DNA of 37,944 nucleotides. It comes from a virus. Position numbers and translations under genes: made by a program. This document shows, piece by piece, positions 5,436 to 34,791 of the stretch. The notes under the pieces are model-generated. The model was given only the letters and a program-made list of their open reading frames with translations. It searched no databases and was not told where the DNA came from. Within the stretch, counting starts at the first letter, position 1; each line of letters starts with the position of its first letter. The stretch spans positions 1 through 37,944 of the IMG/VR virus record IMGVR_UViG_3300044823_000014. One strand, written 5' to 3'.

Positions 5436-5464
5436 AGGGTAACCATTGTCGGGTTACTTGTCTA
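5436..5464 (-). promoter_or_regulatory. Early promoter with 19-bp palindromic operator (site a)
   Basis: Minus strand: TAGACA (-35, 5464-5459), 17-base spacer, TACCCT (-10, 5441-5436). The palindrome GTAACC-N7-GGTTAC occupies 5439-5457, filling the spacer and overlapping -10. The upstream exonuclease gene ends on it: its last codons and stop are read from GTAGACAAGTAA. Confidence 0.75.
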
Positions 5465-6173
5465 CCCTTGGCAGCACCGGCCAGTCTCGGGCAATGCTCT
5501 GGTGGGGTTGACGTTCCTCTTCGGGCAGGGCGTCGTTCTTGCGCTTGAGATACGCCTCGAACGATGCGGACTGCTGGAACTTCCAACCCTTCTGAACCTC
5601 GTGGAGCTGGGCCAGGTTCATCATCGCGATCTCCGGGAGCCGGCCGAGACGGATAGCGAGACGTGCGGCCATGAGGGCGTCGGCGGTGGCGCCGTGGGCT
5701 GTGCCTTCCTGGGGGACGTGGTAGAGCGCGGCAACGTCCACGAGCTTGCGGGAGCCCTTGCGGTACGGGTCAACGGCCTTATCGATCACGAGAGGGTCCA
5801 CCACGAGCAACCCGGAGAGGTCGCAGTCTATCCCGTAGCGGTAGCACTCGCGGGAGACGACGGTGAGGTCGTAGGGGGCGTTGTAGATTACGACCGGAAC
5901 CCCGAGCCGGACGGAGCCGTGAAGCTGCGAGACGATCTCGGGCAATGCGTCGGCGGGGTCCATCCCGGTGGCGGCGACTTCATTGGTGATGCCGTGAATG
6001 TCGATGGCTTCCTGCGGGATCTCGACTCCCGGATCGACGAGCCAGGAGCGGTCCTCAGGGGCACTCAGGGCGTTGCGCCAGAGGCAGGCGGCGGAGACTA
6101 TCCGCGCTGTCTCGGGGTCGGTGCCGGTGGTCTCTGTGTCGAAGGAGAGGATGAGGCCGTCGGACCAGCTCAT
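5454..6173 (-). CDS. DnaQ-like 3'-5' exonuclease (DEDDh)
   Basis: 239 aa. Exo I motif SFDTETTGTD gives D12 and E14. Then IHGIT, exo II YNAPYDLTVVSRE, and exo III HGATADALMAARLA with the DEDDh histidine and aspartate. This is the epsilon-subunit fold, and the protein is a stand-alone nuclease without a polymerase. It probably acts in phage DNA replication or recombination. ATGA overlap with the upstream gene; its C-terminus ...VDK-stop is formed by the -35 region of promoter a. Confidence 0.9.
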   Translation of the reverse strand: MSWSDGLILSFDTETTGTDPETARIVSAACLWRNALSAPEDRSWLVDPGVEIPQEAIDIHGITNEVAATGMDPADALPEIVSQLHGSVRLGVPVVIYNAPYDLTVVSRECYRYGIDCDLSGLLVVDPLVIDKAVDPYRKGSRKLVDVAALYHVPQEGTAHGATADALMAARLAIRLGRLPEIAMMNLAQLHEVQKGWKFQQSASFEAYLKRKNDALPEEERQPHQSIARDWPVLPRVDK

Positions 6174-6727
6174 TGGGTTTCTCGGTAGGCCTGAACGTCA
6201 ACGAAGTCCGCTTCGCTGCCGCCGTGGTCGGGGTGGTGCGCCATGAGCGCCTCACGGATGCCGCCGGCCTGCTCAACGAGGGCCTTGCCGCGGACCGGAT
6301 CGGGACCGCCGGCGGCCAGCGCGAGGAACCCCGCGTACTGCTCGCCGCGGTGGGTGATGCCGTAGCGGTCCACGGCCCGGAGCGCCTCAAGGCCGAGCGC
6401 GATCGAGCGGACGTTGTGCTGCCACCGCTGGCAGATGTCCGTGGAGTAGGTCAGGCGGCCGCGGGCCGAGTCGAAGCTGATCTCGATGCCGGGATGCATC
6501 GGCTCGCGAGCATTGGCCCTCGGCATGCCATCCTGGCGCACGTCACCCTCGCGGAACCCAGCGCCGATGATGACGTCGCGTCCCGAGATCCATTCGATCT
6601 CGTGGGCCAGCAGAGCCAGTGTGTCGCGCCAATCGGCCTTGAATGTCCACCAAGAGCGGCGGTTAGAGTCGGGCGTGGCGGGGTACGGCCAGACCGGGAG
6701 CGGCCGGAAGGTGTAGTTCACCGTCAC
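6170..6727 (-). CDS. J-domain-like conserved phage protein, 185 aa
   Basis: Begins YTFRPLPVWPYPATPD, contains GRDVIIGAGFREGDVR and HNVRSIALGLEALRAVDRYG, and ends with GGIREALMAHHPDHGG. The HPD tripeptide and the surrounding helix resemble a DnaJ J-domain fragment. Similar proteins are common in actinophage replication modules and are usually unannotated. Role not established; it could recruit host DnaK or simply be structural. ATGA coupling with both neighbours. Confidence 0.7.
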   Translation of the reverse strand: MTVNYTFRPLPVWPYPATPDSNRRSWWTFKADWRDTLALLAHEIEWISGRDVIIGAGFREGDVRQDGMPRANAREPMHPGIEISFDSARGRLTYSTDICQRWQHNVRSIALGLEALRAVDRYGITHRGEQYAGFLALAAGGPDPVRGKALVEQAGGIREALMAHHPDHGGSEADFVDVQAYRETQ

Positions 6728-7695
6728 ACCCCTAACAATCGCTGCGCCAACTCCAACCGCTCCTGCGGGCTGACGTTCGGCAGGGTTCGGCCGGTCGGTT
6801 CCAAGAGCTTCGCCTGAGCGTTGAGCATGGATACCGAGACGTTCTGCTCTTTGGCGATGGACTGGATCTCTTCGAGGGTCATGCCGGTCGCGAGCGCATA
6901 GGTAACCGGCTCGGCCTCTTCAGAGATACCTTCGAGGGCGTCGTCGTAGGCGTCTCGGACCAGCCGGTCGCCACGTGGGAGACTCGGCACGCCAGATGGC
7001 AGAGCTCGGTACTCCGCCTCTACCGGCCCGGCGCCGAGTAGTTGCTGAGGGGTGAGCCCAACGATCTCCGGGACAGGGACGATGTAGTCGTGTCGGGGTT
7101 GGCCGGCCTGCTGACTTGACCGCTCTTCGATGCGGAGACGGATCGGGGTTCGGAAACCGCCCATCTCCGCGGCGGCCATCAGGTCAGCGAAGGCGGCCAG
7201 CTCGCGCGCAGCGTTCTCGCCGTGACTCTCAAGCCGGAACGAACCGACTACCGGGACCAACGGGAGGAAGCCACTCAGACGAGAGGTCGGCTTGGCTCCT
7301 TCGTGTTCGGCGGGGTTGCAGGCGCGGCCGGTCGCGTCGTCGATCACGCCGTCGCAGCGATGGACGCAGCCTCCGGCGGTCCACTTCTCAAAGGCCGAGC
7401 TGAACCCGTCCGGGATGATGAGGAAGTCCAGGAAGGGGGACTCGACCACGACCTGCCACTGCCGGCCTGTTCCGGCGGGAGCGGTGTCCCAGAGCGTCAC
7501 CTGGCCGCCGTAGACGGCCGCTACGGCTTGCACTGTCGCTTCGCTGGTGGAAGTGACGCGGAACGTCTTGAGCTTCTCGGCGCGGTACTTCTTCACGCCG
7601 TCTTTCTGGTACTCCTGTTGGAAGCCCATGCGGATGCGCCCAACTTCTCTGTGGCGTGCCTGGATGATGGCGGGGCTAATTCGAGCGGGGGTCAC
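6724..7695 (-). CDS. Gp3-like / recombination-directionality-factor-like protein
   Basis: 323 aa. The N-terminal part (HREVGRIRMG, KLKTFRVTS, YGGQVTLW), the zinc-like CVHRCDG ... GRACNP segment, and GSFRLESHGENAARELAAFADL match the family that includes the phiC31/phiBT1 gp3 recombination directionality factors. In those phages gp3 switches a serine integrase to excision. No integrase is visible here, so in this genome the protein may serve another DNA-related function, as in many lytic actinophages that carry it. Confidence 0.65.
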   Translation of the reverse strand: MTPARISPAIIQARHREVGRIRMGFQQEYQKDGVKKYRAEKLKTFRVTSTSEATVQAVAAVYGGQVTLWDTAPAGTGRQWQVVVESPFLDFLIIPDGFSSAFEKWTAGGCVHRCDGVIDDATGRACNPAEHEGAKPTSRLSGFLPLVPVVGSFRLESHGENAARELAAFADLMAAAEMGGFRTPIRLRIEERSSQQAGQPRHDYIVPVPEIVGLTPQQLLGAGPVEAEYRALPSGVPSLPRGDRLVRDAYDDALEGISEEAEPVTYALATGMTLEEIQSIAKEQNVSVSMLNAQAKLLEPTGRTLPNVSPQERLELAQRLLGV

Positions 7696-8048
7696 TCCGA
7701 GTCTCCTTTCAGTACAGCCAAGAGGGCGCGAGCGTAGGGGATGTGCGCGCCGGCCGAGTGGCAGATCACAGCGTCAACCCCGTCGCCTGCCCAATGCGTC
7801 GGGACGGAGAGCCGGTGCAACGCCTCCGCAATCCGATCTACGCTGAGTGCCGCCTCGGCCTTGCGGAGTCGTTCGATTAGGTCGGCGTGATCTCCGCGGT
7901 GGGACTCTCGATAAACACGCTTCTTGGCGCGTATCTCTTCGCTGTGAGCGGCATCGTAGGCGGCTTGGCGAGCGCGTCTTTGTTCTCGGTGAGCGGCATA
8001 CCAGGCGGCATTCCAGGCTCGCCGAGCAGCCGGATCCTTCAGTGGCAT
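7692..8048 (-). CDS. Hypothetical protein with HNH-type basic N-terminal repeats
   Basis: 118 aa. Residues 1-50 show WNAAWYAAHREQRRARQ ... HSEEIRAKKRVYRESH, the repeated basic aromatic helix seen before HNH domains in phage endonucleases. No HNH core follows. The C-terminal half (DLIERLRKAEAALS ... HIPYARALLAVL) resembles a different small phage family. It looks like a chimera of a DNA-binding arm and another domain. It abuts the nuclease stop and overlaps the downstream gene (ATGA). Confidence 0.6.
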   Translation of the reverse strand: MPLKDPAARRAWNAAWYAAHREQRRARQAAYDAAHSEEIRAKKRVYRESHRGDHADLIERLRKAEAALSVDRIAEALHRLSVPTHWAGDGVDAVICHSAGAHIPYARALLAVLKGDSE

Positions 8049-9032
8049 CTAGGCCGCCTCCTCAATCGGGAGAATGTCGGCACCGATCCAAGTCGATGCC
8101 ATGCTGGGCTGTCCGGCGGTTGTGAGTCGTGACTTTGCCGTGACGCTGACGGCCAGGAAGATCTCGAATACCGGATCGGTCACGTCGACCAACCGGAAGT
8201 GATAGCCGGATGGGGTCAGGTGTAGCACTGCGGCGAACTCGCACTTGGGGAGCGGAACGCTCGTGCCGTCCGGGAGTCCGATGAAGTCGCCTCGGAAGTA
8301 GGCGGACTCCTGTAGCGCCACCTCGTCCCAGATGCTCTTACCTGACTTGTAATCGACTAGGACCGTCACCCACCGTGGCACCAATTCGCCGGGCGGGACC
8401 ATGAAGACCTCGACGATCGCATCGCCTGTGCCGGCGTATACGTGCCGGAGATTGAACACCGAGAACTCGGTCGCGAGGAAGCGCGGGCGGAAGTCGTTCA
8501 CCCACTGAACGTAGCCCTTCATCCGAGAGGCGATCTCGGGGGCGTACTCGGGGATTACGGTGGAGGGGAGATAGAGACGGTCATCCTCGATCACGCCGTC
8601 CGCGATCAGCTTGCCAATCGAGACGAGGATCAGGTCTTCGGCCTCGGCGTGGATGTCGGAGCCTTCGTCGCGCTTCTGGTCACGGTGACGTGGGGCCGCG
8701 CCCTTGAGCCACCGCTGCGCGAGTGCGAGGTCGGTCAAGTCTGAGGGCTTGAGGGTGAGGAGCCGGCCTTCGGCTTGCGCCTCGTCAACGAGGATCCGTC
8801 CGAGCCGTGCCCATTCTCGGATCATGGTGCGAGCCTGACGTCGGCCGTGGGTCTCAAGGTCGGTGGTTGCGAGGTCGGCCGTCATCTTGGCGTAGTGCTG
8901 GTGCAGCCACTTAGGCCACCCTTCGCCGATCAGGGTTGTCACGCTTGGATAGCGTTCGCCATCCCAGGTGTACCAGCGGTCGCCGTCCTCGTTGGTCTTG
9001 GCGAGGGCGGGGCCGGATATGCGGCGGGTCAT
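8049..9032 (-). CDS. RecB/Cas4-like PD-(D/E)XK exonuclease
   Basis: 327 aa. Key residues are H128 in GSDIHAEAEDL, D204 in GTGDAIVEVF, D227 and K229 in VLVDYKSGK, and Q241 in the following LQESAYF. That order (H, D, D-x-K, Q) is the RecB-family nuclease signature. No iron-sulfur cysteine cluster is seen. It is likely the phage recombination or DNA-processing exonuclease, with the coiled-coil protein upstream as possible partner (ATGA overlap). Confidence 0.85.
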   Translation of the reverse strand: MTRRISGPALAKTNEDGDRWYTWDGERYPSVTTLIGEGWPKWLHQHYAKMTADLATTDLETHGRRQARTMIREWARLGRILVDEAQAEGRLLTLKPSDLTDLALAQRWLKGAAPRHRDQKRDEGSDIHAEAEDLILVSIGKLIADGVIEDDRLYLPSTVIPEYAPEIASRMKGYVQWVNDFRPRFLATEFSVFNLRHVYAGTGDAIVEVFMVPPGELVPRWVTVLVDYKSGKSIWDEVALQESAYFRGDFIGLPDGTSVPLPKCEFAAVLHLTPSGYHFRLVDVTDPVFEIFLAVSVTAKSRLTTAGQPSMASTWIGADILPIEEAA

Positions 9033-9658
9033 CGGACCACCGGCTCCTCAGTCTCCCAGATGTGCACGCCGGGAATGGCCGAGACGCCACCCCGAACGGC
9101 TGCGCCGATGGCAACCTCGTTGACGGTCAGGTACTCCGCCGGGACGGCGCCGCGCTCGATGACTTCGAAGTGGCGGACCGTTCTGAACCCGACGTTGCCC
9201 TGAGTGCGCGGCGTCATCGGAACGCTCGGGAGAAACGGAGGCGGGGCCGGGGGCTCGATGCCCTTCTCGATGGCGCGCTCGACTGCGCGTTCCTGCCGCG
9301 CCTCGGCCAATTTCCGCAGACGCTCCTCCTCGGCTCGAGCGGCGGCGGTGACGTCGGCGCGGTACTTCGCTGTCTTCCGGGCCAGGATCGCGTCGGCCTC
9401 GGCGGCGGGTCCGGCCATCTCCTTGAAGTGGGCGTTGATGACCTTGACCTGATCGTTGAGCGGGCCGACGAACCGGACCCGCAGAGCCTCGACTTGCTTG
9501 ACCGCCTTACGTGCTCGGCTGAGCAACTCCAGCGCCGCGCCGTTCGTGGGCTCGTCCGTGATCTCCAGATCCCTCGCAGCGTCAGCGATCGTGCGGGCAG
9601 CGCTGTCGGCCGCCTTGACTTCGGCGTCTTCCGCGTAGGGTGCAATTGCGTTTGTCAT
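9029..9658 (-). CDS. Coiled-coil recombination-associated protein, 209 aa
   Basis: First gene after promoter b, with AGACGAAAGGACG (9676-9664) in its leader. Residues about 20-130 are strongly helical and coiled (VKVINAHFKEMAGPAAEADA, then ARAEEERLRKLAEARQERA). The C-terminus (VPAEYLTVNEVAIGAAVRGG, then IPGVHIWE) is a conserved phage motif in proteins paired with RecB-like nucleases. It may be a single-strand annealing helper or nuclease partner; no defining catalytic motif is visible. Confidence 0.7.
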   Translation of the reverse strand: MTNAIAPYAEDAEVKAADSAARTIADAARDLEITDEPTNGAALELLSRARKAVKQVEALRVRFVGPLNDQVKVINAHFKEMAGPAAEADAILARKTAKYRADVTAAARAEEERLRKLAEARQERAVERAIEKGIEPPAPPPFLPSVPMTPRTQGNVGFRTVRHFEVIERGAVPAEYLTVNEVAIGAAVRGGVSAIPGVHIWETEEPVVR

Positions 9659-9695
9659 CGTTTCGTCCTTTCGTCTTGCCAGGTTGGCTAGGTTG

Positions 9696-9724
9696 AGGGT
9701 AACCGGGTGGGGGTTACTTGTCTA
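9696..9724 (-). promoter_or_regulatory. Early promoter with 19-bp palindromic operator (site b)
   Basis: Minus strand: TAGACA (9724-9719), 17-base spacer, TACCCT (9701-9696), with GTAACC-N7-GGTTAC at 9699-9717. The layout is the same as site a, down to the upstream gene ending on it (...VDK-stop). Confidence 0.75.
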
Positions 9725-9848
9725 CAGGCTTTCGCCGGGTCGTGAGTCCGGCGATCACGAGGGCCTCCAGGATCGCTATTCCGATCCCGAGGAGGATCAG
9801 GGAGAGCATGCCCCAGAATGCCCACTGAACCATGAGGATGGGGGTCAT
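9714..9848 (-). CDS. Small membrane protein, 44 aa
   Basis: ATG 9848 overlaps the upstream stop (TGATG). One long hydrophobic segment, WAFWGMLSLILLGIGIAILE, continues into ALVIAGL and a basic tail TTRRKPVDK. The single-span topology probably leaves the C-terminus in the cytoplasm. The stop codon sits inside promoter b. Function unknown. Confidence 0.6.
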   Translation of the reverse strand: MTPILMVQWAFWGMLSLILLGIGIAILEALVIAGLTTRRKPVDK

Positions 9849-10129
9849 CAGTTCGTTCCTTTCGCGAACCATGCGCGAACCTGAGCGAGCAGATCCGCCG
9901 ACCCGGCCGGGGACGGATTGTAGGTTCGTTCCGTTCCCCAGAGGCTCAGGGCGGCTTCTAGCTCGATGTAGGTTGCGTAAGTCTCCTCGTCCCATTCGCC
10001 GGACCAGCAGGAGCAGTCATCCGCCGTTGCCAGCACGAACGTGCCGTCTGGCAGCAACCTAACCTCGGCCATGTCCACTTCGTACGAGGGCGACTCGTCA
10101 ACTTCGGCGATGACCGTGTAATCGCTCAT
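9848..10129 (-). CDS. Hypothetical acidic protein, 93 aa
   Basis: Overlaps the XRE gene stop by ATGA. Strongly acidic: VDESPSYEVDMAEVRLLPDG, then DDCSCWSGEWDEETYATYIE. Ends with a helical ADLLAQVRAWFAKG. It could be a DNA-mimic-like inhibitor or a regulator partner, but this is speculation from charge alone. Confidence 0.6.
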   Translation of the reverse strand: MSDYTVIAEVDESPSYEVDMAEVRLLPDGTFVLATADDCSCWSGEWDEETYATYIELEAALSLWGTERTYNPSPAGSADLLAQVRAWFAKGTN

Positions 10130-10425
10130 TTCGTCCCTTTCAGCGCCGCGCGATAGCGGGTCTTCGTCTCGGCGGTCGGGTGATCCTGCCGCTCGATCTT
10201 CCAGATGGCTTGCTTGCCGACTCCCATTCGTCGGCCGACTTCGGGTTGAGAGAGGCCGGCGGCTTCGCGTTCTGCCGCGAGATCTGCGCCGGTACTGAAG
10301 TCTGAGGCGTCCCGGAGCTCACGGATGGCGGTGTCCAGGTCGCGGGGGATGCCCGGGCCTATCCAACGTGAGCGCGCTTCTAGGACGTGGTGTACGGCGG
10401 TGGAGAGGGCGTCGACGGGGCTCAT
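10126..10425 (-). CDS. XRE-family helix-turn-helix regulator
   Basis: 99 aa. The C-terminal half, LAAEREAAGLSQPEVGRRMG then VGKQAIWKIERQ, is a clear Cro/C1-type HTH: residues EAAGLSQPEVGRRMG form helices 1-2 and GKQAIWKIE is the recognition helix. The N-terminal half is helical and may dimerise. It lies in the operon driven by promoter c, so it is the best candidate for the protein that binds the 19-bp palindromes. That link is inference. Coupled to both neighbours by ATGA. Confidence 0.8.
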   Translation of the reverse strand: MSPVDALSTAVHHVLEARSRWIGPGIPRDLDTAIRELRDASDFSTGADLAAEREAAGLSQPEVGRRMGVGKQAIWKIERQDHPTAETKTRYRAALKGTK

Positions 10426-10724
10426 GCGAGCTTGCCTCGGCTAAGCCGAACCATCCACCGAGGGTAGGGGCTGGACTGTCGCGTGATCGTGACCGGGCTA
10501 CTCACCTGGAGTTGCATGTTGAGGTGGAGCAGGTCTTGGCTCAGGACTGAGGAGATTTCGTCCTGCTCTGGCACGGTACCCTTCGGGACGTTTTCGAGGA
10601 TGGCATCGAACTCGTAGGCCACGATGCTCGGCTGGGGGAGCCGCCGGATGCGGCGCCAAGTCGATGTCCAGATGGCCTCGCGCTTAGGCAGTTCAATTCG
10701 GAAGTGGCGCGGCTCTACTCTCAC
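10422..10724 (-). CDS. Hypothetical protein, 100 aa
   Basis: GTG start at 10724 overlaps the upstream stop (GTGA), and the stop overlaps the XRE gene. Beta-rich with basic ends (EPRHFRIELPKREAIWTSTW, then VRLSRGKLA). No family recognised. Confidence 0.6.
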   Translation of the reverse strand: MRVEPRHFRIELPKREAIWTSTWRRIRRLPQPSIVAYEFDAILENVPKGTVPEQDEISSVLSQDLLHLNMQLQVSSPVTITRQSSPYPRWMVRLSRGKLA

Positions 10725-11023
10725 GCGAACCTCCCGCGTATCACGATCTCGTCTCGTTCCCGGCGAAGGATGAGCGCGTCGATCGTCTCGCCCTTCATCT
10801 TGATCCGGACGGAGCGACCGGGGAGGTATTCGGGGGGCCAGGTTTCCTGCGCCACGAACTTGATCTCGTGGTCGACGTCGTGGCTGAGTCCGAAGATGTG
10901 ACCGGGGATCGGGATCTCGAACTTGAGAGGGAGCCGGGTGCTGGCCGGCCGTTCGTCGGTCAGGTCCGCCTTGGCTATCTCAAAGTGCGTTACGACGGGC
11001 GGGTGGGTAGATTTACTGCTCAC
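10721..11023 (-). CDS. Hypothetical protein, 100 aa
   Basis: GTG 11023 chosen: it follows AGACGAAAGGA with good spacing, a near copy of the early leader 13-mer, while the longer ORF to 11320 overlaps other genes. The sequence is beta-rich (FEIPIPGHIFGLSHDVDHEI, then GRSVRIKMKGETIDALILRR) and may be a small SH3- or OB-like fold. Function unknown. Confidence 0.6.
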   Translation of the reverse strand: MSSKSTHPPVVTHFEIAKADLTDERPASTRLPLKFEIPIPGHIFGLSHDVDHEIKFVAQETWPPEYLPGRSVRIKMKGETIDALILRRERDEIVIRGRFA

Positions 11024-11049
11024 GGCGTTTCCTTTCGTCTCAGTGGTCC

Positions 11050-12095: not shown

Positions 12096-12232
12096 GACTG
12101 GCCTCCAACTATCAGGCAGAAGAACAGCACCTCGACGATCAGCGCGACGAACAGGAGTCCAGCCGCGATGGTTTCGAGGGCGCTGTGGAGCCGGGACGGC
12201 GGGGCGGGACGATGGGCTTGTGAGCGGTTCAC
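12092..12232 (-). CDS. Small membrane protein, 46 aa
   Basis: GTG 12232 is preceded by GGAGGG five bases away and overlaps the upstream stop (GTGA). A basic N-terminus is followed by one membrane span, ETIAAGLLFVALIVEVLFF and CLIVGG. Function unknown; one of several tiny membrane proteins in the early block. Confidence 0.6.
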   Translation of the reverse strand: MNRSQAHRPAPPSRLHSALETIAAGLLFVALIVEVLFFCLIVGGQS

Positions 12233-12300
12233 TTGCGCCCTCCGAATAGCGCCCAATCCGTCGCCGCGAGCAGTAGCAGGAAGCAGAGGGCGGCGATCAT
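12229..12300 (-). CDS. Membrane micropeptide, 23 aa
   Basis: ATG 12300 overlaps the upstream stop (ATGA). Codes for MIAALCFLLLLAATDWALFG plus GRK: a single hydrophobic helix with a basic end. Its stop overlaps the next start (GTGA) and its end supplies that gene's ribosome site. It may be functional or merely a coupling leader. Confidence 0.4.
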   Translation of the reverse strand: MIAALCFLLLLAATDWALFGGRK

Positions 12301-12578
12301 GCTTCCTCGCCTGCCTTGTCATCTTCGAGGCCCATCGGCTCCGGGGCTAGGACAAAGATCGCGTTGACGACCACCTGCTTGCCCCGAGCAAAGTTGAGAA
12401 TGCCGAGAAGGAGCCACGAGCGCTTGCTGCGGCCTTCCTGAGCGATGTTGCTCGACTGGAGGATGTATCCCTTCTTGGCCATCTTCTCGATCTCGCGAGC
12501 GAGGAGCTTGTTGGCGTTCTTGGCTGAGCACTTCTTGCTAGTCCACGCCACGACCTTCTTCTTGCCAAAGAGACCCAT
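12297..12578 (-). CDS. First early-operon protein, 93 aa, basic with hydrophobic segment
   Basis: Start at ATG 12578 after AGACGAAAGGACG (12598-12586); the ORF upstream to 12632 would read into the promoter. MGLFGKKKVVAWTSKKCSAK is basic, then a helix, a hydrophobic stretch SWLLLGILNFARG and VVVNAIFVLAPEP, and an acidic tail. As the first gene of the early transcript it is probably made first after infection. Function unknown. Confidence 0.65.
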   Translation of the reverse strand: MGLFGKKKVVAWTSKKCSAKNANKLLAREIEKMAKKGYILQSSNIAQEGRSKRSWLLLGILNFARGKQVVVNAIFVLAPEPMGLEDDKAGEEA

Positions 12579-12600
12579 TTCGTTCCGTCCTTTCGTCTGT

Positions 12601-12614: not shown

Positions 12615-12621
12615 TACAGGG

Positions 12622-12650
12622 ATAGTAACCACCCGTAGGCTACTTGTCTA
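12622..12650 (-). promoter_or_regulatory. Main early promoter with palindromic operator (site c)
   Basis: Minus strand: TAGACA (12650-12645), 17 bases, TACTAT (12627-12622), the best -10 of the set. The operator at 12625-12643 is GTAACC-N7-GGCTAC, one mismatch in one arm. It is the first promoter after the late terminator and drives the block from 12578 downward. Confidence 0.75.
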
Positions 12651-12684
12651 GTGTCCGGCGTTAGTTACTCTTCGTTCTCGGGGT

Positions 12685-12794: not shown

Positions 12795-12925
12795 GGGACA
12801 CGTAGTGTTTACCTATGGTGTCCCGCCCTCGTGGTGTCCCGCCCTTGTCCCGCCCTGTGTCCCGGTCAAAAGAGCCCAATCGGGACATGTCCCGGGACAG
12901 GCAGCGGGACAACCCGGCGTGTCCC
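12795..12925. repeat. Array of ten TGTCCC/GGGACA hexamers in both orientations
   Basis: Hexamers start at 12795, 12819, 12835, 12846, 12858, 12882, 12888, 12894, 12906 and 12920. Positions 12882-12893 form the palindrome GGGACATGTCCC. The last five repeat the exact spacing of the cluster at 1291-1342. Density is far above the genome background; it could be operators, iterons or a partition site. Confidence 0.75.
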
Positions 12926-12936
12926 GGTCATGGAAA

Positions 12937-12969: not shown

Positions 12970-12994
12970 GCTGAGGGGAATTCGTGGTTACTTT

Positions 12995-16811: not shown

Positions 16812-16825
16812 GCCGATGGTACCGC

Positions 16826-16854
16826 TTTACATGTAACCTGCCGGGGGTTACGGT
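16826..16854 (+). promoter_or_regulatory. Plus-strand promoter with 19-bp palindromic operator (site d)
   Basis: Plus strand: TTTACA (16826-16831), 17 bases, TACGGT (16849-16854), with GTAACC-N7-GGTTAC at 16833-16851. The operator sits at exactly the same place relative to -35 and -10 as in sites a-c, but the promoter points to the plus strand and gene 16881-17117. Confidence 0.65.
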
Positions 16855-16880
16855 TGCCCACCACCAGTAGGAGAGCCAGC

Positions 16881-17117
16881 ATGGAAGCCGAGTGCCTCGC
16901 ACTAATCCTTGGGCCGGACGGCAGCATCACCCCGGCGTGCCCGGGAGCGTCAGCCACGCCAACCCCCACGCCGACACCTGTTCCGACTGTAGCGCCGACC
17001 CCACCACCGACGAGCACTTCGGGGCACGCTGCGGTCGCCGGCTGCGACTTGACGGTTGCGGTTGCCTTGGGAGTGGCCACGGCGGCGATCCTCATTCGTA
17101 GGGCGCTGCGAAGCTGA
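16881..17117 (+). CDS. Plus-strand small membrane protein with Pro/Thr-rich stalk, 78 aa
   Basis: ATG 16881 follows AGGAG with eight bases spacing. A short N-terminal head with two cysteines (MEAECLALILGPDGSITPAC) is followed by a Pro/Thr repeat stalk (about residues 25-50), one C-terminal membrane span (TVAVALGVATAAILI) and a basic RRALRS end. The positive-inside rule puts the stalk outside the cell. It is the only non-endonuclease gene on this strand, has its own operator-bearing promoter, and overlaps the distal tail gene 3' end by 26 bases, convergently. It could be a surface or superinfection-exclusion protein, or a lysis factor; undecided. Confidence 0.65.
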   Translation: MEAECLALILGPDGSITPACPGASATPTPTPTPVPTVAPTPPPTSTSGHAAVAGCDLTVAVALGVATAAILIRRALRS

Positions 17118-18507
17118 CGGTAAGCAGGGTCGAGCCCGTACAGCCGGCTCCACTGATCTGCAGCACGTTGACACCCGGGGCCAGTGTGAGGAACGGCGTG
17201 GCGCCTGAGTGAGACAGCGAGCCGATGACGTTGGCCCCGTCGTTCAGCGCGGTGAAGGCTCCCGTATCCACGATCAGATGTTTCGTCCCGGCGACGGTCG
17301 TGCTGATCGTAACTGAGGTGCCTGTAGTCGTGTTCGTGATCGTCGGGTTGGTGATGGGGCCGAGGAAGTCGAGCGTGAGCTTCTCGGCGAGTACCGAGCC
17401 GGGGTTGGTCACGCTGAGCGTGACGGCTGCGCCGGAGCCCTTGATGATCGCCACCGCGCCGTCCCAGGCAGTAGCCCCATTGATCTGTGTTGATGTGATT
17501 GGCAGGCCGCTGGGCGGGTATAGGTTGTACTGGGAATTGCTGACTACCGAGCCCGAATAGGCGACTTGAACTAACCCCCCGGTCTGGCCGGGCCACGGCA
17601 TTAGGAACATCAGACTTGCCGCAGGGTAGGCTCCTACTGATGCCCATATACCGCCTTCAAAAGGTGCTGTGGGCGTAACGGTTGGTCCGGCGCCAAACGA
17701 CGGACCGGAGCCATTGACGTGTGCATCTATTGCCCCCAGCCCTGCCGCTGTCGATGCGCCCAACAATGGCTGGGCGAAGCCGCCGATTAGCCCGCTGGCC
17801 GCTGTCACGGTAACGGTGCCCGATGTCCCCGTTCCGCCGGTCCCAATATAGATCTCGCAGTCTCGGTAGGTGTTAGCCCCATCCACCCGCGTCCAGGTGT
17901 AGTGCCCACCGAATGTATCGGCGATCGAAGAGAGGGCCGTCGTGTAGCCCTGCGTCGCATGAACGACGATGATGGGCTGGCCTGAGGTCACACCCGTCAG
18001 CGCCGCAGTCCACGTTGTGCGCGGGCCGGAGATGTTTGAGACGACCGCTGTTCCGAAGGCGAGCCCGGCATTCGGCACGACGCTCCCGGTGACCGTAGGC
18101 CCGTAGAACCACGGATCCGGGAGCGAGAAGTCGACGACTCCCTGAAACACAGACCCGGACTCGTCCTCGTCGTTGAAGTCCCAGCCGATGCACTCGGCCA
18201 TCGCCGTTCGGATCGAGCCGTCGTCAAGGGTGTTGACGAGAGGCTGCAAGCCGGTCCGAGACGCGAAGAGGCGGGCCAGGATGTCGAAGTACATCCGGGC
18301 GTTGGCCTGGTTGTCGATGATGGTGATGAGGAAGTGGACGACCCGGCCGCCGTGGAGCTTCGGGACGAACTGCTCGCCGGTCGCGTTCTGAGCGATCCAG
18401 TTGGCGCCGCGGAGTGGAGGCTGCCCGAAGCCGCGCATCTGCGTGATCTTCATGTTGGGCTGGTTCAGGGGGAAGCCACCGAAGCTGAACCGATTGAGAG
18501 CGGCCAT
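17092..18507 (-). CDS. Distal tail protein (Dit-like) with inserted domain
   Basis: 471 aa, ATG 18507 overlapping the tape measure stop (TGATG). The N-terminal part (RFSFGGFPLNQPN, then HFLITIIDNQANARMYFDIL) and SLPDPWFYGPTVTGSVV are typical of siphovirus distal tail proteins. A large Gly/Thr-rich insert lies at about 175-330 and a galectin-like beta region at the C-terminus (ISGAGCTGSTLLTVSF). Probable role: adaptor between tail tube and tip. Confidence 0.7.
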   Translation of the reverse strand: MAALNRFSFGGFPLNQPNMKITQMRGFGQPPLRGANWIAQNATGEQFVPKLHGGRVVHFLITIIDNQANARMYFDILARLFASRTGLQPLVNTLDDGSIRTAMAECIGWDFNDEDESGSVFQGVVDFSLPDPWFYGPTVTGSVVPNAGLAFGTAVVSNISGPRTTWTAALTGVTSGQPIIVVHATQGYTTALSSIADTFGGHYTWTRVDGANTYRDCEIYIGTGGTGTSGTVTVTAASGLIGGFAQPLLGASTAAGLGAIDAHVNGSGPSFGAGPTVTPTAPFEGGIWASVGAYPAASLMFLMPWPGQTGGLVQVAYSGSVVSNSQYNLYPPSGLPITSTQINGATAWDGAVAIIKGSGAAVTLSVTNPGSVLAEKLTLDFLGPITNPTITNTTTGTSVTISTTVAGTKHLIVDTGAFTALNDGANVIGSLSHSGATPFLTLAPGVNVLQISGAGCTGSTLLTVSFAAPYE

Positions 18508-26980: not shown

Positions 26981-28171
26981 GTTCGAGACCTCCTGTGGGG
27001 GGACTGTGCGGCGACCTGCCGCTGGATCGGCGCTTGCATTGGTCTCACGGAGATGGCGCCACGACTCCGCGAGGTTGACGATCTGGCCGCCGGCACCTGC
27101 GACGGTCACGAAGTCGACCGAGCCCAGCGGGTCCGCGATGATCCGCTCGACGATCGGCCCCTTCTTGCCTTCGGCCTCTCCGCTCTTTGCCATGCCCTTC
27201 ATGCGGATCGAGGTTCCGATGTTGGGGGCCAGCTGCTCGAGGAGCGGCGCGAACTCGCGGAGCGGCTTGGCGGGGGCGTACAGCCCCGGACCCGCCAGAC
27301 CGGCGGGGTCCCAGACAGCCGAGGCGGAGAGCACGGCGCCGATGTCCTTGATGGATCGCTCCGGTCGGTCGGCCTCTTCGGCGTAGCCCGGGTGGTCCAC
27401 GAACATCCGGGTGCCGGCGGTGAAGACCACAGGGCCGTCACGCTTGAGGACCTCTTCGGAGTAGTACCCGCTCGAGCCCCATCCCGGCTGGATGAGCTTG
27501 ATGAGCATGGTGCCATCCGGGCGGACCACCGACTCCACCAGCGGGATGATGTCGCCCGTCAGTTCGACCGCGCTCTCTGCGGTGGTCGTGGTGCTGGAGT
27601 AGTACGTGGTCACGTTGGCCGGCGCGTCCACGTCGTCATCGGGTCCGCCGATCTCCCCGATCTCCGCCGTGACCCACGCGAGGACGAGAGGCACGACTGC
27701 CATCAGGCCCTCGTACACCTTCTGCAGCATGGCGACCTGATCCGGTTCGTCCGACTCGTCACTGATGAGGTACAGCGTGGACTGAGCGGCGTACTCGATC
27801 GACGTCACGATCCCGACGCCACGAGCGGCGTCCTGGGCTTCGCCGGAGTAGGCCTCCATCGCTCGCAGCGACTCAGCGGCCGGCTCTTCGCCGTCTCCGA
27901 GCGCCTTGAGAACGGCGTCGATGTTGGCGGCGGCGGCGCGGAGTTGCTTCTCGTTCGCAGCCGAGAGGACGCGCCCGACCTCGCGAAGGGCCAGGTGAGC
28001 ACTGGCGGCCTCGTTCATCATGCCGGCCATCTTGGTCGCAGCCTTCCCGGCGTCTTCCTGGGACATACCGCGCCCGACAGCCTTGTTGGCCATCTTGACC
28101 CATGCGGCCTTTGCCTTGTCGGAGCCCTTCGGGAGGGCCTCTGTTGCATCGTCAGCGGTGAACGCAGCCAT
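26555..28171 (-). CDS. Capsid maturation protease with C-terminal scaffold
   Basis: 538 aa. N-terminal part has SDKAKAAWVKMANKAVGRG, a ChaB-like segment. Protease-like core at about 205-360: IIPLVESVVRPDGTMLIKLI, FVDHPG (H260) and GSVDFVTVAGAGG (S351), fitting a Ser/His prohead protease. Residues 398-538 are coiled, Ala/Glu-rich scaffold. It overlaps the minor head stop by one base (TAATG). The scaffold part also has its own start at 26980. Confidence 0.75.
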   Translation of the reverse strand: MAAFTADDATEALPKGSDKAKAAWVKMANKAVGRGMSQEDAGKAATKMAGMMNEAASAHLALREVGRVLSAANEKQLRAAAANIDAVLKALGDGEEPAAESLRAMEAYSGEAQDAARGVGIVTSIEYAAQSTLYLISDESDEPDQVAMLQKVYEGLMAVVPLVLAWVTAEIGEIGGPDDDVDAPANVTTYYSSTTTTAESAVELTGDIIPLVESVVRPDGTMLIKLIQPGWGSSGYYSEEVLKRDGPVVFTAGTRMFVDHPGYAEEADRPERSIKDIGAVLSASAVWDPAGLAGPGLYAPAKPLREFAPLLEQLAPNIGTSIRMKGMAKSGEAEGKKGPIVERIIADPLGSVDFVTVAGAGGQIVNLAESWRHLRETNASADPAAGRRTVPPQEVSNMDLQETQTKLAAAETARDTALAEAARATEALILREARDVVVTELASAKIPDITRTRLSESLGKNPPVKDGKLDTDALKASVKEAVAAEIDYLAKITGSGQVRGLGGTSTAAPIDVEKSLTESFKALGMSDSGAALAAAGRR

Positions 28172-29874
28172 TAGGCGGCCTCCTCGGCTCTCTGGTACAG
28201 GACGTCGCAGCGGCAGTTGTGTACAATCACCCTATTGGCGGTGTACCAGCCGTCTACGGTTTCGAGGTTGTAGACATGACCAGCAAATGGATACCGGAGG
28301 ACCCGGATGATCTCTGTCGGCGTTACCTGTCCGGCGTATCGGTGAATGCTCTCGCGCAGGAAAGCAGCATCAGCCGTCGCGTCATCGACCGCGTGCTCCA
28401 CGAACGGGGCATTGAGCGCCGGGGCAGCACGGACGCCAACCGGCTCATGGCTGCCGGCCGGACCACCGAGCAGCGGCGCGCCTACGCCGAGGCCGCCCAC
28501 GCTGCGGTCCGCGGCAGCCATCGGAGCATGATCGCCAAGGAACGGCTCGCTCAGACCATCGAGCGCCTCGGCCGAAGCACTCCCGGCGAAACGCTCTTTG
28601 CCCTGTGGCTGCGAGCACGCGGAGTCGAGACGGTTCCCCAACTCGCGATCGGCCCATACAACTGCGATCTTGGAGCCGGACCCGTCGCCGTGGAAATCTT
28701 CGGCGGCAACTGGCACGGCTCGGGGCGTCACGCCGCTCGCTTCGTGGAGCGCACCCGCTACCTGATCGAGCACGGTCTGAATGTCGTCATCGTGTGGAGC
28801 ATCGGACCCTGCCCGCTGAGCGAGAGAGCGGCTGACTACGTGGCCGCCTTCGTGGAGCGATCCAAACGCAACCCATCCTTCCGGGGTGAGTACCGGATGA
28901 TTTGGGGTGGCGGCGAGGAGTGCGCCATCGGCGGTCTCGATCTCGACCATCTCGCCGTCGTACCACCGCATGGTCGCGCCCACCGCCTGCGGCCCTGAAA
29001 CCATCGTCCCGGCGGGGAAGCAACTCGGGTGCGTGGGTGGGGGATCGTTGGGGAAGTCGTCGTTGACGGAGATCCAACCAACGCCCTGGTTGTCCGAGCA
29101 GTCGTCGCAGGCGTCGTCTTCGGCGATGACGCTCTGCTCCATGTCGAGTCCGGCGGCCGAGAGGTCATCCACGACGGATCGCGAGCCGGCCTCGTATGCG
29201 AATGCGGACTCCGTAACGGCGATGACATCGGCGCGGTCGCGGAGGAACGAGGGGATGCCGGGCTGTGCGCTGTTCTCCCATCCGTCGTAGGTCGAGCGGA
29301 TGGAGCTGGCGATCTTGTTGTACGAGTCGCCCTGAGCCAGCCCGTCGGTGATGACCTTCTCGAGCGTCTGGCGGGTGGTCTCGTTGATGCCCACGACCTG
29401 CTCGGCTGCACGTCCGGCGAGCCACGTAACCGCGCGGGGGTTACTGAGGCTGAACGTCTCGTCGATGTCGAGGCTCATGGACTGCCACGTCCCGCCGGCC
29501 TTCATCGCGGCTTCGAGTCCGGCCTGTAGCGGATCGGTGAAGAGCGACAGGGTTGCGGAGGCGGCGTCGTTGAATGGGATGTCCCATCGCGTGACGGCTT
29601 CGCGCAGGCGGCGGTGAACGGTTGGGGCCGCTACTCGCGCCGCCTCATTCGTGGGGAACCCCGCACCCGTCAGGACCATCGCGGAGAGGAACGCCTTGCG
29701 CTGTGCGGTGAAGGCCACGCGGAGCGATCGTGCCAGGTCGCGCTCTACCGGCGTCAGGGCCTTGATCTTGGCGGAGCGGACCGATTGGGCCGTCATGGCC
29801 TCGCGGATCGCCTGGTAGCGTCCTAGCGCGTCTGACGCGGCCTGCAGATGGGCGGAGAAGTAGAGGGCGGTCAT
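28171..29874 (-). CDS. Minor head protein (SPP1 gp7 / Mu gpF-like) interrupted by an intein
   Basis: 567-aa precursor; ATG 29874 overlaps the upstream stop (ATGA), so the longer ORF to 30066 is rejected. Exteins: residues 1-284 (helical, with RADVIAVTESAFAYEAGSRS and DDACDDCSDNQGVGW ... PPTHPS) and 554-567 (CRCDVLYQRAEEAA). Joined they give the family's HPxCRC motif and a usual length of 298 aa. The intein (285-553) must be removed to restore the zinc-like motif. The protein takes part in head assembly beside the portal. Confidence 0.88.
   Translation of the reverse strand: MTALYFSAHLQAASDALGRYQAIREAMTAQSVRSAKIKALTPVERDLARSLRVAFTAQRKAFLSAMVLTGAGFPTNEAARVAAPTVHRRLREAVTRWDIPFNDAASATLSLFTDPLQAGLEAAMKAGGTWQSMSLDIDETFSLSNPRAVTWLAGRAAEQVVGINETTRQTLEKVITDGLAQGDSYNKIASSIRSTYDGWENSAQPGIPSFLRDRADVIAVTESAFAYEAGSRSVVDDLSAAGLDMEQSVIAEDDACDDCSDNQGVGWISVNDDFPNDPPPTHPSCFPAGTMVSGPQAVGATMRWYDGEMVEIETADGALLAATPNHPVLTPEGWVAFGSLHEGGHVVSRSLAQRAGSDAPHDDDIQTVLDQVAGALHEASGVTPRAVPVAAEDFHGDGSGSKIAVVWADRELGNRLDSACSQPQGKERFAGSASAEALDGLSEPFLGDHAPMAAADRSVGGLGVGAPLLGGPAGSHEPVGVRAAPALNAPFVEHAVDDATADAAFLRESIHRYAGQVTPTEIIRVLRYPFAGHVYNLETVDGWYTANRVIVHNCRCDVLYQRAEEAA
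28216..29022 (-). mobile_element. Intein in minor head protein, 269 aa
   Basis: Starts with C285 (CFPAGTMVSG, block A), block B TPNHPVLTPEGWV, and ends with block F VYNLETVDGWYTAN and block G VIVHN before extein C554. All splice residues are present: Cys1, the TPNH histidine, the penultimate His, the last Asn and the +1 Cys. No LAGLIDADG or HNH domain is encoded in this frame; the central 170 residues are low-complexity Ala/Gly/Asp-rich sequence. An endonuclease gene occupies the opposite strand instead. Confidence 0.9.
28276..28998 (+). CDS. Vsr-like (EDxHD-type) homing endonuclease, antisense within the intein
   Basis: 240 aa from ATG 28276 with GAGG eight bases upstream; a GTG at 28219 is an alternative. 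Residues about 8-50 form a resolvase-like HTH (CRRYLSGVSVNALAQESSIS, RRVIDRVLHERG). Residues about 100-185 are a Vsr/PD-(D/E)XK-type nuclease: TPGETLFALWLRARGV (E105), YNCDLG (D131), VAVEIFGGNWH (E140, H147), then RYLIEHGLNVVIVW. This resembles the I-Bth0305I family found with split inteins. The whole gene lies within the intein on the other strand. It probably mobilises the intein DNA. Confidence 0.85.
   Translation: MTSKWIPEDPDDLCRRYLSGVSVNALAQESSISRRVIDRVLHERGIERRGSTDANRLMAAGRTTEQRRAYAEAAHAAVRGSHRSMIAKERLAQTIERLGRSTPGETLFALWLRARGVETVPQLAIGPYNCDLGAGPVAVEIFGGNWHGSGRHAARFVERTRYLIEHGLNVVIVWSIGPCPLSERAADYVAAFVERSKRNPSFRGEYRMIWGGGEECAIGGLDLDHLAVVPPHGRAHRLRP
29426..29444. promoter_or_regulatory. 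Intragenic 19-bp palindrome (site f)
   Basis: Perfect GTAACC-N7-GGTTAC inside the minor head gene. No -35 or -10 is seen beside it on either strand. It could be a stoperator-like roadblock site. Confidence 0.55.
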
Positions 29875-30242
29875 GGGTGCAACCAGGCAGCGAGCGAGTG
29901 AGCGTTGTTCAGGACCAGCAGGACCACGGAGACACTGCCCACGATGGCGAGGGCCCAACGGAAGAACCGGAAGACTCCGCGTACCTCGTCGCGGATCGTG
30001 GTCAGCACCGTGAGGGCCGCGAGGGCTTGGATGCGGGCGGCCTCCGCTGCGACTGCGGCCTCGCACGCCTTCTCCCGGGCGTCATCGGATCGGCGGAGTA
30101 GCTCTCGGCCTGCGGGGGTGTTGTGGGGGGCGTTATTGGCGTCCTCCAACCGCTTGACCGTCTCGGCGATCGAGCCCACCTGTTCACGGATCCACTTCGT
30201 ATCGTTCTCAAGCGCCACGAGTCGCTCCCCTTGCGTTGTCAC
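29871..30242 (-). CDS. Coiled-coil protein with C-terminal membrane anchor, 123 aa
   Basis: N-terminal coiled coil (GERLVALENDTKWIREQVGS, ETVKRLEDAN), Ala/Glu helix, then one C-terminal membrane span (ALAIVGSVSVVLLVLN). It overlaps the portal stop (ATGA or similar) and the minor head start. It looks like a spanin- or holin-like accessory but is in the head module; role unknown. Confidence 0.6.
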   Translation of the reverse strand: MTTQGERLVALENDTKWIREQVGSIAETVKRLEDANNAPHNTPAGRELLRRSDDAREKACEAAVAAEAARIQALAALTVLTTIRDEVRGVFRFFRWALAIVGSVSVVLLVLNNAHSLAAWLHP

Positions 30243-31897
30243 GGGGTGACCGCCTTTGTCATTTCACGGATGGCCTCGCGAAGTTGGCGGGCGGCTTCGG
30301 CCATGTCGGGCGGGACGACAGGCGTGCCGGGCGTGGCGGTCTGCTCCGTCTCGTTGTCGGGGAAGAGCAGGTCGAGTTGTTCGTCGATGTCATCCACCCC
30401 GAGAGCCGAGAGCAATAGGCGGCTGAGCGTCTTGGTGTCCATCGTGCCGGCGGGAGTGCCCATCGAGTTGCCCAGCGTTGCCGCCTCGACGATGGCCTGG
30501 ACTCGCGAGACCGGATCGTGCTCCAGGACTGAGGGGAAGTTGACGTCGATGCCGCGGTCCATCGGTTCGCCCGTTTCGGGATCGCGAGCGAGCACGACCT
30601 TGCGCTCTTCGGTGTACGGATCCACAACCACGAGCCCGCCCTTGAGCGGCCCGTTGACGTGGATAACCGCCTGGTCGATGACGTACTGCAGGAGGTCCAC
30701 CAGCACGTCGGACCAGAGCGTCTGGCGGTTGCGCATCTTCAGCTCGGTGGGGCGGTCGAGCGACTTGGCGGTTGCGAGGTTGCCCGTGCTGACGTCGCCC
30801 GAGAGCATCGTCTCGGGGAGCCCCATGCCGGCGCCGGTCATGAGCCAGAAACGCCGGGCCTCATCCGGGGGAAGGGTCGCGCCGGAAGTCTTGACCGGCT
30901 GCATGTCCCAGCCCTCGGCCCCGACGAAGGTGGAGGCGGTGACGGGCGGTGGGTTGCCCTCCATCCGGGAGCCGTCGGACACCAGAGTGGTGGCGAGCTT
31001 GTTCTTGGCCGATGCCACTCCGGCCTTGCCGCCCTTGGTCGTGAGGGTCCAGGCGAAGCGTGCCAGTGCCCTACGGAGGGAGGCGTAGTCCTCGAGGTCC
31101 TCCTTGACGGCACGCGCCCAGTCGATCGCGCTGTAGATCTCCGGCACGCCGAAGTCCATGTCGCCCAACCCACCCGACTTGAGGTGATAGACCGGGCTGT
31201 CCCAGTTGATCGGCAGGCCACCGAACTTCTCGGGCTTCTGATCCGGGTCGTACTTCCAGTCGGGGTAGTACGCCTGCTGAGTCGTCACCGAGACGGTGCC
31301 CGCGTCGGGGTCGACGCCCTTGGTGGACCAGGACCTCTTGTAGTACCAGGGTTCGGACTTGTTCTCGGGGTTGCGGACGATCTCGATGATCTCGTCCACG
31401 TTGATCGTCCCGACCCGCACGAACCCGGTGGAGGAATTGGTGAAGAGGACGAAGAACAGGTTGCTCTCGACCTGCAGCTGGCGTTCGAGCATCAACCGCG
31501 CGGCGTGGCCGGTGAGCTCCTGAGCGTTGGGCCGGTAGTCGATGAACGCCTGGATCACGTCGTTGACCGGAGCGGACTTGGCCGTGATGGAAACGCCCTG
31601 GCCCCAGACGTAGTGGCTCTGGACCTCGACGCCATTGTGGATCAGGGGGTTCTTCAGGTAGGACAGGCGGGCGATGCGGATGAGCTTCGTCAGCCCGTCG
31701 CGGCTGAACTCCCGCTGACCGGCAAGGGACTGACGCATCCAGCCGGTGTCTTCGAGCGCAAGTTCAAGCTCGGCGAACCGCTCCTGCAGCAACTCGATCG
31801 ACGCATCCGCCTGATCTCGGACACGTTCGACCTCGCGGTGCATCTCCGCGACCGGAACCATCTCCGGGGCTGCCTTGGCGGTTCGCCGAGCGGGCAT
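30239..31897 (-). CDS. Portal protein
   Basis: 552 aa. N-terminal helical arm, then KLIRIARLSYLKNPLIHNGV, YVWGQGVSITAK, FGVPEIYSAIDWARAVKEDL and MTGAGMGLPETMLSGDVSTG, typical of dodecameric portal proteins (stem and clip). The C-terminal region is acidic. It lies after the large terminase and before the minor head gene. Confidence 0.85.
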   Translation of the reverse strand: MPARRTAKAAPEMVPVAEMHREVERVRDQADASIELLQERFAELELALEDTGWMRQSLAGQREFSRDGLTKLIRIARLSYLKNPLIHNGVEVQSHYVWGQGVSITAKSAPVNDVIQAFIDYRPNAQELTGHAARLMLERQLQVESNLFFVLFTNSSTGFVRVGTINVDEIIEIVRNPENKSEPWYYKRSWSTKGVDPDAGTVSVTTQQAYYPDWKYDPDQKPEKFGGLPINWDSPVYHLKSGGLGDMDFGVPEIYSAIDWARAVKEDLEDYASLRRALARFAWTLTTKGGKAGVASAKNKLATTLVSDGSRMEGNPPPVTASTFVGAEGWDMQPVKTSGATLPPDEARRFWLMTGAGMGLPETMLSGDVSTGNLATAKSLDRPTELKMRNRQTLWSDVLVDLLQYVIDQAVIHVNGPLKGGLVVVDPYTEERKVVLARDPETGEPMDRGIDVNFPSVLEHDPVSRVQAIVEAATLGNSMGTPAGTMDTKTLSRLLLSALGVDDIDEQLDLLFPDNETEQTATPGTPVVPPDMAEAARQLREAIREMTKAVTP

Positions 31898-31900
31898 GAG

Positions 31901-33953: not shown

Positions 33954-34592
33954 CTAGTCGCCGGCCAGGACGCGCTCAACCTCGGCGAGAACAGCATCGA
34001 GCGGCATCCCGGTCTCGTCTGCGATCTTCTGAGCTTCCTTCTTCACGTCCACCGAGACTTCCATTCGGAGATTGTCGCGGTACACGGCCGGCCGACGCGC
34101 CTTGAGCATGAACATCAGGAGCTGGTCGCTGTACTCGCGGATCACGCCAACGAGTTTCCCGCCCTGATAGATCGGCTTCTCCGTGCCATGCGTAGCCCGG
34201 CGCTGCGCCTCTTGCTCCATGAACTGGGTGGACTGCTCGATCGCGGCATCGAAGAGGGCGGCAAAGGCAGGCTCCTTCGTGCGGGCCTCGTAGACCGTTG
34301 CGACACCTACCCCAGCAAGGGCGGCGGCGGTCCGAACGATCCCGGTCTGCGCAAACGCCTCAAGGAAACGGGGCTCCCATACGGCGTGGCGAACCTCGCT
34401 CACCGTGCGTGTGCGCGAAGCGGCCACCTTTTCGGATGGCTGGGGCTCCGGCGCAGAGGGCTTATCGGCCTTCCTAGACGTTCTGGGGGCCTGCGGGCGT
34501 ACCCCGCTCTGGGCTTCTTCCCTCTTCCGGGCGCGGTACTCGGCCTTGCGGAGTCTGTCCCGTTCCGTGTGTGTCCCATCTGTCCCGTTCAT
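33954..34592 (-). CDS. Terminase small subunit
   Basis: 212 aa. N-terminal basic linker, then an HTH-type region (FLEAFAQTGIVRTAAALAGV, GVATVYEARTKEPAFAALFD) and the frequent small-terminase C-terminal pattern GGKLVGVIREYSDQLLMFML, KARRPAVYRDN. It recognises phage DNA for packaging. No ribosome site; the start codon is within a 10-bp inverted repeat (34570-34600). Confidence 0.82.
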   Translation of the reverse strand: MNGTDGTHTERDRLRKAEYRARKREEAQSGVRPQAPRTSRKADKPSAPEPQPSEKVAASRTRTVSEVRHAVWEPRFLEAFAQTGIVRTAAALAGVGVATVYEARTKEPAFAALFDAAIEQSTQFMEQEAQRRATHGTEKPIYQGGKLVGVIREYSDQLLMFMLKARRPAVYRDNLRMEVSVDVKKEAQKIADETGMPLDAVLAEVERVLAGD

Positions 34593-34600
34593 GGGACACA
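34570..34600 (-). promoter_or_regulatory. Inverted repeat over the small terminase start codon
   Basis: TGTGTCCCAT (34570-34579) and ATGGGACACA (34591-34600) form a perfect 10-bp stem with an 11-base loop that contains a further TGTCCC. In RNA the stem would cover the AUG; in DNA it is a cluster of three TGTCCC/GGGACA hexamers like those in the hub. Confidence 0.55.
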
Positions 34601-34674
34601 GGCTACAGCGTCTCTAGGCGCTTACGCAATCGGGCGATGTTCCCTGAGAGGTTCGAGGCAGCGTAGGCGGGGAG

Positions 34675-34731
34675 TTGTCCACATTCGCGCCGGGCAGAGC
34701 GAAACCCCGCTCCTCCGCGCTCTGTGGACAA
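34675..34731 (-). promoter_or_regulatory. TTGTCCACA inverted pair in the late leader
   Basis: TTGTCCACA (34675-34683) and TGTGGACAA (34723-34731) are inverted 9-mers, each the actinobacterial-type DnaA box. Between them lies a second inverted repeat, CAGAGCG (34695-34701) and CGCTCTG (34718-34724). A competing pairing, CCCCGC at 34705-34710 with GCGGGG near 34743, is followed by TTT on the minus strand. It could be a DnaA-binding origin element or an attenuator in the late transcript leader. Confidence 0.45.
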
Positions 34732-34761
34732 AGAGAGGGAAGGCGGGGCTTCAGCAGGGAG

Positions 34762-34791
34762 AGCGTAACGGACTGAGGGTTACCGCGTCAA
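34762..34791 (-). promoter_or_regulatory. Late promoter with palindromic operator (site e)
   Basis: Minus strand: TTGACG (34791-34786), 18 bases, TACGCT (34767-34762). Operator GTAACG-N7-GGTTAC (plus strand, 34765-34783), one arm mismatch. It overlaps the end of the PolX gene and drives the small terminase and all structural genes. Confidence 0.65.

Follow-up and report, generated by a model that had tools for sequence, protein, structure and literature searches.

The virus record IMGVR_UViG_3300044823_000014 (37,944 bases, G+C content 64.6%, two ends identical at 187 of 188 bases; analysed in full and hereinafter the window) contains a 19-base palindrome, GTAACC-N7-GGTTAC, in early, late and plus-strand promoters, which raises the question of which protein binds this element and with what effect on transcription. 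We propose that a dimeric repressor made by the phage probably uses the palindrome as its operator, and that this repressor is most likely the XRE protein encoded at 10126-10425. Almost all genes of the window are on the minus strand, and the labels 'early' and 'late' used here are based on gene content: the early part encodes a DnaB-type helicase, a DNA polymerase exonuclease subunit, a Gp3-like protein and a Cas4-like exonuclease, and the structural and late genes encode the small and large terminase subunits, portal, head proteins, tape measure, a holin-like and a peptidase-like protein.

The window contains four exact copies of the palindrome and two copies with one arm mismatch (Table 1). 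The first-pass annotation had located five of these, all of which we recover at the same positions and with the same state of the arms, but its list was incomplete, given that a further exact copy inside a head gene had been overlooked. No other palindrome family with 6-nucleotide (nt) arms and spacers of 0-20 has as many copies in the window as GTAACC-N7, with its four exact ones, whereas the best family of any kind in 40 shuffled windows reached one copy in 4 shuffles, two in 33 and three in 3. With at most one mismatch, the six observed copies compare with a shuffle mean of 0.017 and a maximum of 1 (60 shuffles). When up to three mismatches are allowed, the excess of copies is weak (14 observed vs 6.84 in shuffles, standard deviation 2.70). 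Five of the six copies take up the spacer of a sigma-70-like promoter, in agreement with the earlier placement of the promoter boxes around the arms: 1-2 nt separate the end of the -35 box from the left arm, and the right arm contains the start of the -10 box (TACnnT), with a spacer of 18 nt in the late promoter and 17 in the other four. The chance rate of such a promoter register is about 1.7% of positions, on either strand. A consensus promoter scan of the whole window yielded 16 promoter-like sites, and the four most palindromic of these are four operator-bearing promoters. Among the papers listed in a literature search for a palindrome with GTAACC and GGTTAC arms, nothing concerned such a motif.

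The motif, its promoter register and its conservation, as well as that of the XRE gene, can be read directly from the sequences of the window and of related phages. A portal search of viral contigs gave 15 related loci, and 16 records (these and one from a separate search) were scanned for the motif, which was found at one mismatch or less in two of them, G002 and G015, both near-complete at around 38.7 kb; many of the remaining 14 are short fragments, so that absence of the motif there says little. A pattern scan of the viral contigs also picked up the 11.9-kb fragment G021, which contains the motif twice in exact form and shares lysin-like, tail and tape measure genes with the window. The first-pass annotation had proposed a scan of related phages and named absence of the motif from orthologous promoters as evidence against its reading; these three relatives carry the motif at matching promoters. 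The operator of the first early promoter is present in all four records that cover this place (window 12625, G002 34345, G015 8895, G021 855), with varying downstream genes, and that of the exonuclease block in all three (window 9699, G015 4687, G002 2171), with a shifted exact gene boundary. The late operator is found in two of three records (window 34765, G015 34225); the G015 promoter has the same 18-nt spacer, with a perfect operator as opposed to the one mismatch in the window. The plus-strand promoter, window 16833, is matched by G021 4817, which has a poor -35 box (3/6), and the operator at window 5439 has no counterpart in the relatives. The operator arms are preserved while the 7-nt spacers mostly differ between relatives, and the promoter register is seen in 11 of the 14 copies in the window, G002, G015 and G021, copies at matching places not being independent. 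This count leaves out three one-mismatch sites (G002 2196, G002 8837 and G015 35865) that we rejected as operators: they have no promoter register, and their GGTGAC/GGTAAC arm occupies the Shine-Dalgarno place; the window has no such one-mismatch site ahead of the orthologous gene 36000-36500.

The copy inside the head gene, at 29426, lacks a promoter and is conserved in G015, as might be expected of a chance or non-regulatory repeat, such as a DNA processing, packaging or modification site. Its right arm, however, is altered in G002 (L030:17916), so that the coding sequence likely explains its presence in G015, and this copy is probably a chance occurrence in coding sequence outside the operator set. 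With the copy counts and the register of the remaining sites far beyond chance, a non-regulatory origin of the entire set is hardly credible. The exact register in the spacer, together with the conservation at matching promoters with drifting spacers, gives good support to the earlier suggestion of a single regulator, common to the early, late and plus-strand promoters.

The best candidate for this regulator remains the one named in the first-pass annotation, the XRE protein, the presumed binder of the operator. In Pfam searches, this protein matches HTH_31 (33.5 bits) and HTH_3 (24.7 bits), both above the cut-offs, and the HTH_3 search gave one match each in the window, G002 and G015, these matches being orthologues (69% and 65% identity). 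A search of the viral contigs for relatives of the XRE protein retrieved G002 and G015 only, and the G002 protein had no match among named phages. The structure model of the XRE protein shows a helix-turn-helix (HTH) fold, with a mean predicted local distance difference test score of at least 84 per 10-residue block from residue 41 onward, and matches solved XRE/Cro-type domains with Z of 6.7-8.5, which indicates the common fold and nothing beyond; the 434 and P22 c2 structures are among the matches to the XRE sequence profile or model. The second protein that had been put forward, 36536-37054, is weakened as a candidate, given that its HTH-like stretch is missing in the orthologue from G002 (three forward frames read; tblastn of G002), a phage that does have operators.

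A dyad site that spans the gap between the -35 and -10 boxes blocks the polymerase when occupied, as established for lambda-type operators, and repression is therefore the likely role of the regulator. The operator-bearing promoters would be used by the RNA polymerase with the main sigma factor of the host. The XRE gene lies in the minus-strand early operon behind the promoter at 12625, so that the XRE protein, if it is the binder, would exert feedback on its own operon. Produced from this operon, the protein would accumulate, and its dimer, bound to GTAACC-N7-GGTTAC between the -35 and -10 boxes, would block the polymerase and thereby shut its own promoter, two internal early promoters, the plus-strand promoter and that of the late leader; repression upon binding and the timing of these events are part of the proposal rather than of the observations. 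The first-pass annotation had also allowed for an activator, and an activator or dual regulator that untwists the promoter in a MerR-like manner and switches transcription from early to late genes would account for the motif common to early and late promoters and for the late spacer that is one base longer in both the window and G015. However, MerR-type promoters have spacers of 19-20 nt, the spacers of 17-18 nt seen here already suit the polymerase, and the palindrome covers the core promoter in all register-bearing cases; we consider such an activator quite improbable.

Another possibility is an immunity repressor of the lysogeny type, by which a maintained (for example, extrachromosomal) prophage would silence all its promoters, as with C1 of phage P1. 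The operators at early, late and moron-like promoters fit this scheme, as do a Gp3-like recombination directionality protein (6724-7695) and a ParB-domain protein in G015 (G015:C1:33101-33373, plus strand, E-value 8e-32). Nevertheless, the XRE gene is located within the early operon and has no divergent unit of its own, no ParA match was found in any of three records, and there was no ParB match in two of the three (window and G002). Furthermore, no integrase or resolvase (PF00589 or PF00239) was matched in any of four records (window, G002, G015 and the G003 fragment, another relative), an absence that is no proof in a virus record. On balance, a lysogeny-type repressor appears rather unlikely, and the lack of an integrase favours a Cro-like feedback role of the XRE protein over that of an immunity repressor of an integrated prophage.

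A similar arrangement occurs outside this group of phages (about 65% G+C), in three unrelated virus lineages and in one toxin-antitoxin promoter. G023 (85.8 kb; 56% G+C in the parts read) contains three exact copies, each with a -35 box starting TTGAC and followed by TACAAT or TACTAT, and the promoter-operator layout is also present in the viral contig G024. In G018, G019 and G022, an XRE gene (HTH_3 E-values of about 1e-13 to 1e-14) adjoins the same palindrome with a TTGACA -35 box and a less perfect -10 box. None of 48 window proteins has a match in G023 (36 kb read), G024 or the loci of the G018 group. In two Desulfobacterales contigs (L060:2990-3664 and L064:974-1646), a toxin-antitoxin promoter carries the same palindrome in the same register, and the operon downstream encodes an XRE antitoxin and a YafQ-like toxin (a weak match, tested in L060). 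The XRE genes beside the operator in the G018 group and in Desulfobacterales were noticed after the fact and lend suggestive support by association. By count alone, enrichment of the motif in viral contigs had to be rejected, the 16-base pattern being found in 11 stretches compared to 3 and 10 for two permuted-arm controls. It is the full layout that separates them: TNGACA with the T of the -10 box occurs in 6 of the 11 motif stretches but in 1 of the 13 control stretches. A stringent 19-base pattern gave nothing in the viral contigs. The pattern TNGACANGTAACCN7GGTTACNNT occurs in five stretches of the genome collection, about the chance level (our own estimate being about 7); two of these represent one toxin-antitoxin promoter type, one is at a coding end, one precedes a small gene in Arenicella, and the remaining one lies about 290 bp ahead of a threonyl-tRNA synthetase gene (identified by eye). 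With this pattern at chance level, it is unlikely that the layout marks a common host regulon, and we rejected that reading. It is conceivable, albeit somewhat doubtful, that unrelated viruses employ the sequence -35 / 1 nt / GTAACC-N7-GGT[TACnnT] as a portable unit of promoter and operator; in that case, XRE proteins with the same type of recognition might have been disseminated, or might have arrived by convergence at a single operator that doubles as a promoter spacer.

Several observations weigh against the XRE protein as repressor acting through this operator. No late operator was found in G002. For a repressor made early, control of the late and plus-strand promoters would be unusual in its timing, unless the outcome depends on affinity or copy number. 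In G023, the three operators are accompanied only by a weak HTH_3 match 5.7 kb away, and distant plasmid relatives of the XRE protein lack such a palindrome within 1.5 kb (5 loci read of 11 records). The sequence bound by MtHigA3, among the nearest solved relatives, is a different one, and in the gel of PMC7340258 only DNA-2 was shifted, whereas DNA-4, with the palindrome TATAACC-TAGA-GGTTATA, was not; HigA3 was therefore rejected as proof of a shared half-site. Finally, the 11.9-kb fragment G021 has operators but no XRE match, which would fit binding of the operator by another phage protein or by a host regulator. Further early proteins that are kept in all three genomes (e.g., 10721-11032 and 6724-7695) would be available for such a role. 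Conversely, the search for HTH_3 matched no protein but XRE (individual searches for other DNA-binding folds were not made), protein 36536-37054 loses its HTH-like stretch in G002, and a host regulator is at odds with the near-chance frequency of the full promoter pattern in the genome collection, so that we deem a different binder unlikely and retain the XRE protein.

Table 1. Operators, promoters and accompanying features of the window
Feature	Coordinates	Strand	Remarks
Promoter with exact operator 5439-5457	5436..5464	-	TAGACA-17-TACCCT; precedes 63-residue open reading frame 5203-5394
Promoter with exact operator 9699-9717	9696..9724	-	TAGACA-17-TACCCT; precedes 9029-9658 and 8049-9032
First early promoter with operator 12625-12643 (one arm mismatch)	12622..12650	-	TAGACA-17-TACTAT; precedes 12297-12578
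Plus-strand promoter with exact operator 16833-16851	16826..16854	+	TTTACA-17-TACGGT; precedes open reading frame 16881-17117
Late promoter with operator 34765-34783 (one arm mismatch)	34762..34791	-	TTGACG-18-TACGCT
Exact palindrome	29426..29444	none	No promoter register; inside head gene 28171-30066
99-residue XRE protein	10126..10425	-	Sole HTH_3 match in the window; favoured candidate for operator binding
78-residue open reading frame	16881..17117	+	Pro/Thr stretch, hydrophobic C-terminus; opposes neighbouring genes; moron-like
Leader element GACGAAAGGACG	12586..12597	-	Downstream of first early promoter
Leader element GACGAAAGGACG	9664..9675	-	
Leader element GACGAAAGGACG	5403..5414	-	
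G+C-rich hairpin GAAGCCCC...GGGGyTTC	34699..34755	-	Directly downstream of late promoter; z score about -2

Among the genes behind the operator-bearing promoters, 9029-9658 belongs to a PHROG annotated 'exonuclease' and 8049-9032 encodes the Cas4-like exonuclease. The late promoter is located about 170 nt upstream of the small terminase gene 33954-34592, and the minus frame 16808-17647 that overlaps the plus-strand open reading frame looks non-coding (judged by eye). The hairpin behind the late promoter has a similar counterpart in G015 (L033:14230-14318, z score about -2) and is possibly an attenuator, a terminator-like element or an antitermination target; it would permit a separate antitermination step in late transcription.

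Three of the four exact window copies of the leader element GACGAAAGGACG begin 42-46 nt after the start of an operator (promoters 5439, 9699 and 12625). The element also accompanies the G015 8895 and G021 855 operators, and one exact copy in G002 has no preceding operator. A block of 493 bases (12105-12597) is 99.8% identical to G002 L031:15767-16259, with otherwise diverged flanks, and stops at GACGAAAGGACG, as if at a gene exchange boundary. A further palindromic promoter in G002, TTGACA-AGTACGCGCCAGCGCG-TATACT (L031:16639-16672), has a different operator sequence. In the relative G003 (a 24.9-kb fragment), the motif is missing; the XRE gene there is not an orthologue and diverges from a promoter that holds the palindrome TTCTACA-GT-TGTGTAGAA (L034:2684-2710), a single case that possibly represents another operator specificity. 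A cluster of TGTCCCG/CGGGACA half-sites with the core CGGGACATGTCCCG occurs at 1291-1342 and 12881-12932, one copy behind the helicase gene and the other behind the lysis genes, and is conserved as two copies in G015 (L032:9113 and L033:5108). With RNA folding z scores of about -3 for both window copies, the cluster might be the site of a second regulator, an origin or a terminator.

By protein comparison, many of the named relatives of the window are Actinomycetota phages. The portal (30239-31897) has Methanoculleus virus Blf4/L4768 as its closest named virus (41.9%), with other genes pointing to Actinomycetota phages. DNA comparison of the early region to named phages found no close relatives of the window, and Rfam and tRNA searches gave no match.

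Taken together, these findings outline the regulon of an uncultured phage group that is compact and defined by its sequence, so that the promoters, the operator and the likely repressor are directly recognisable. Because the genes behind matching operators differ among relatives, the kept arms and drifting spacers illustrate clearly how an operator is maintained while genes are exchanged. If one recognition type is indeed employed by unrelated viruses, phages that share the operator could repress each other on co-infection.

HigA/HipB antitoxins and the controller C proteins of restriction systems resemble the XRE protein in their HTH fold and autoregulate via sites in their promoters, and HigA3 (6ltz) is 38% identical to it over 53 aligned residues. 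Next to the phage gene, no known family of toxins was recognised: for the neighbours 9848-10129, 10422-10724 and 10721-11032, Pfam gave no match at E 0.1, although a toxin of an unfamiliar type may be among them. With the lambdoid Cro/CI systems (lambda, 434, P22), the regulon shares a small XRE-fold protein, its gene in an early operon and a dyad operator overlapping the -35 and -10 boxes, but instead of several operators grouped between a repressor promoter and a divergent early promoter, single operators are dispersed genome-wide. Phage P1 likewise has many single operators scattered over its promoters; these lack symmetry, and C1 is not known to be an XRE protein, as opposed to the symmetric operator and XRE candidate described here. 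Cluster A mycobacteriophages also combine one phage repressor with many dispersed sites, but these stoperators, according to PMC9283540, are asymmetric, are bound by a monomeric repressor and halt elongation, whereas the sites in the window are symmetric and lie within promoter spacers. The element is real and conserved and belongs to a familiar kind, the phage regulons with dispersed operators; what is new is the specific operator, the promoter grammar, its distribution among promoters of the early, late and plus-strand types, and a hint of recurrence in unrelated viruses.

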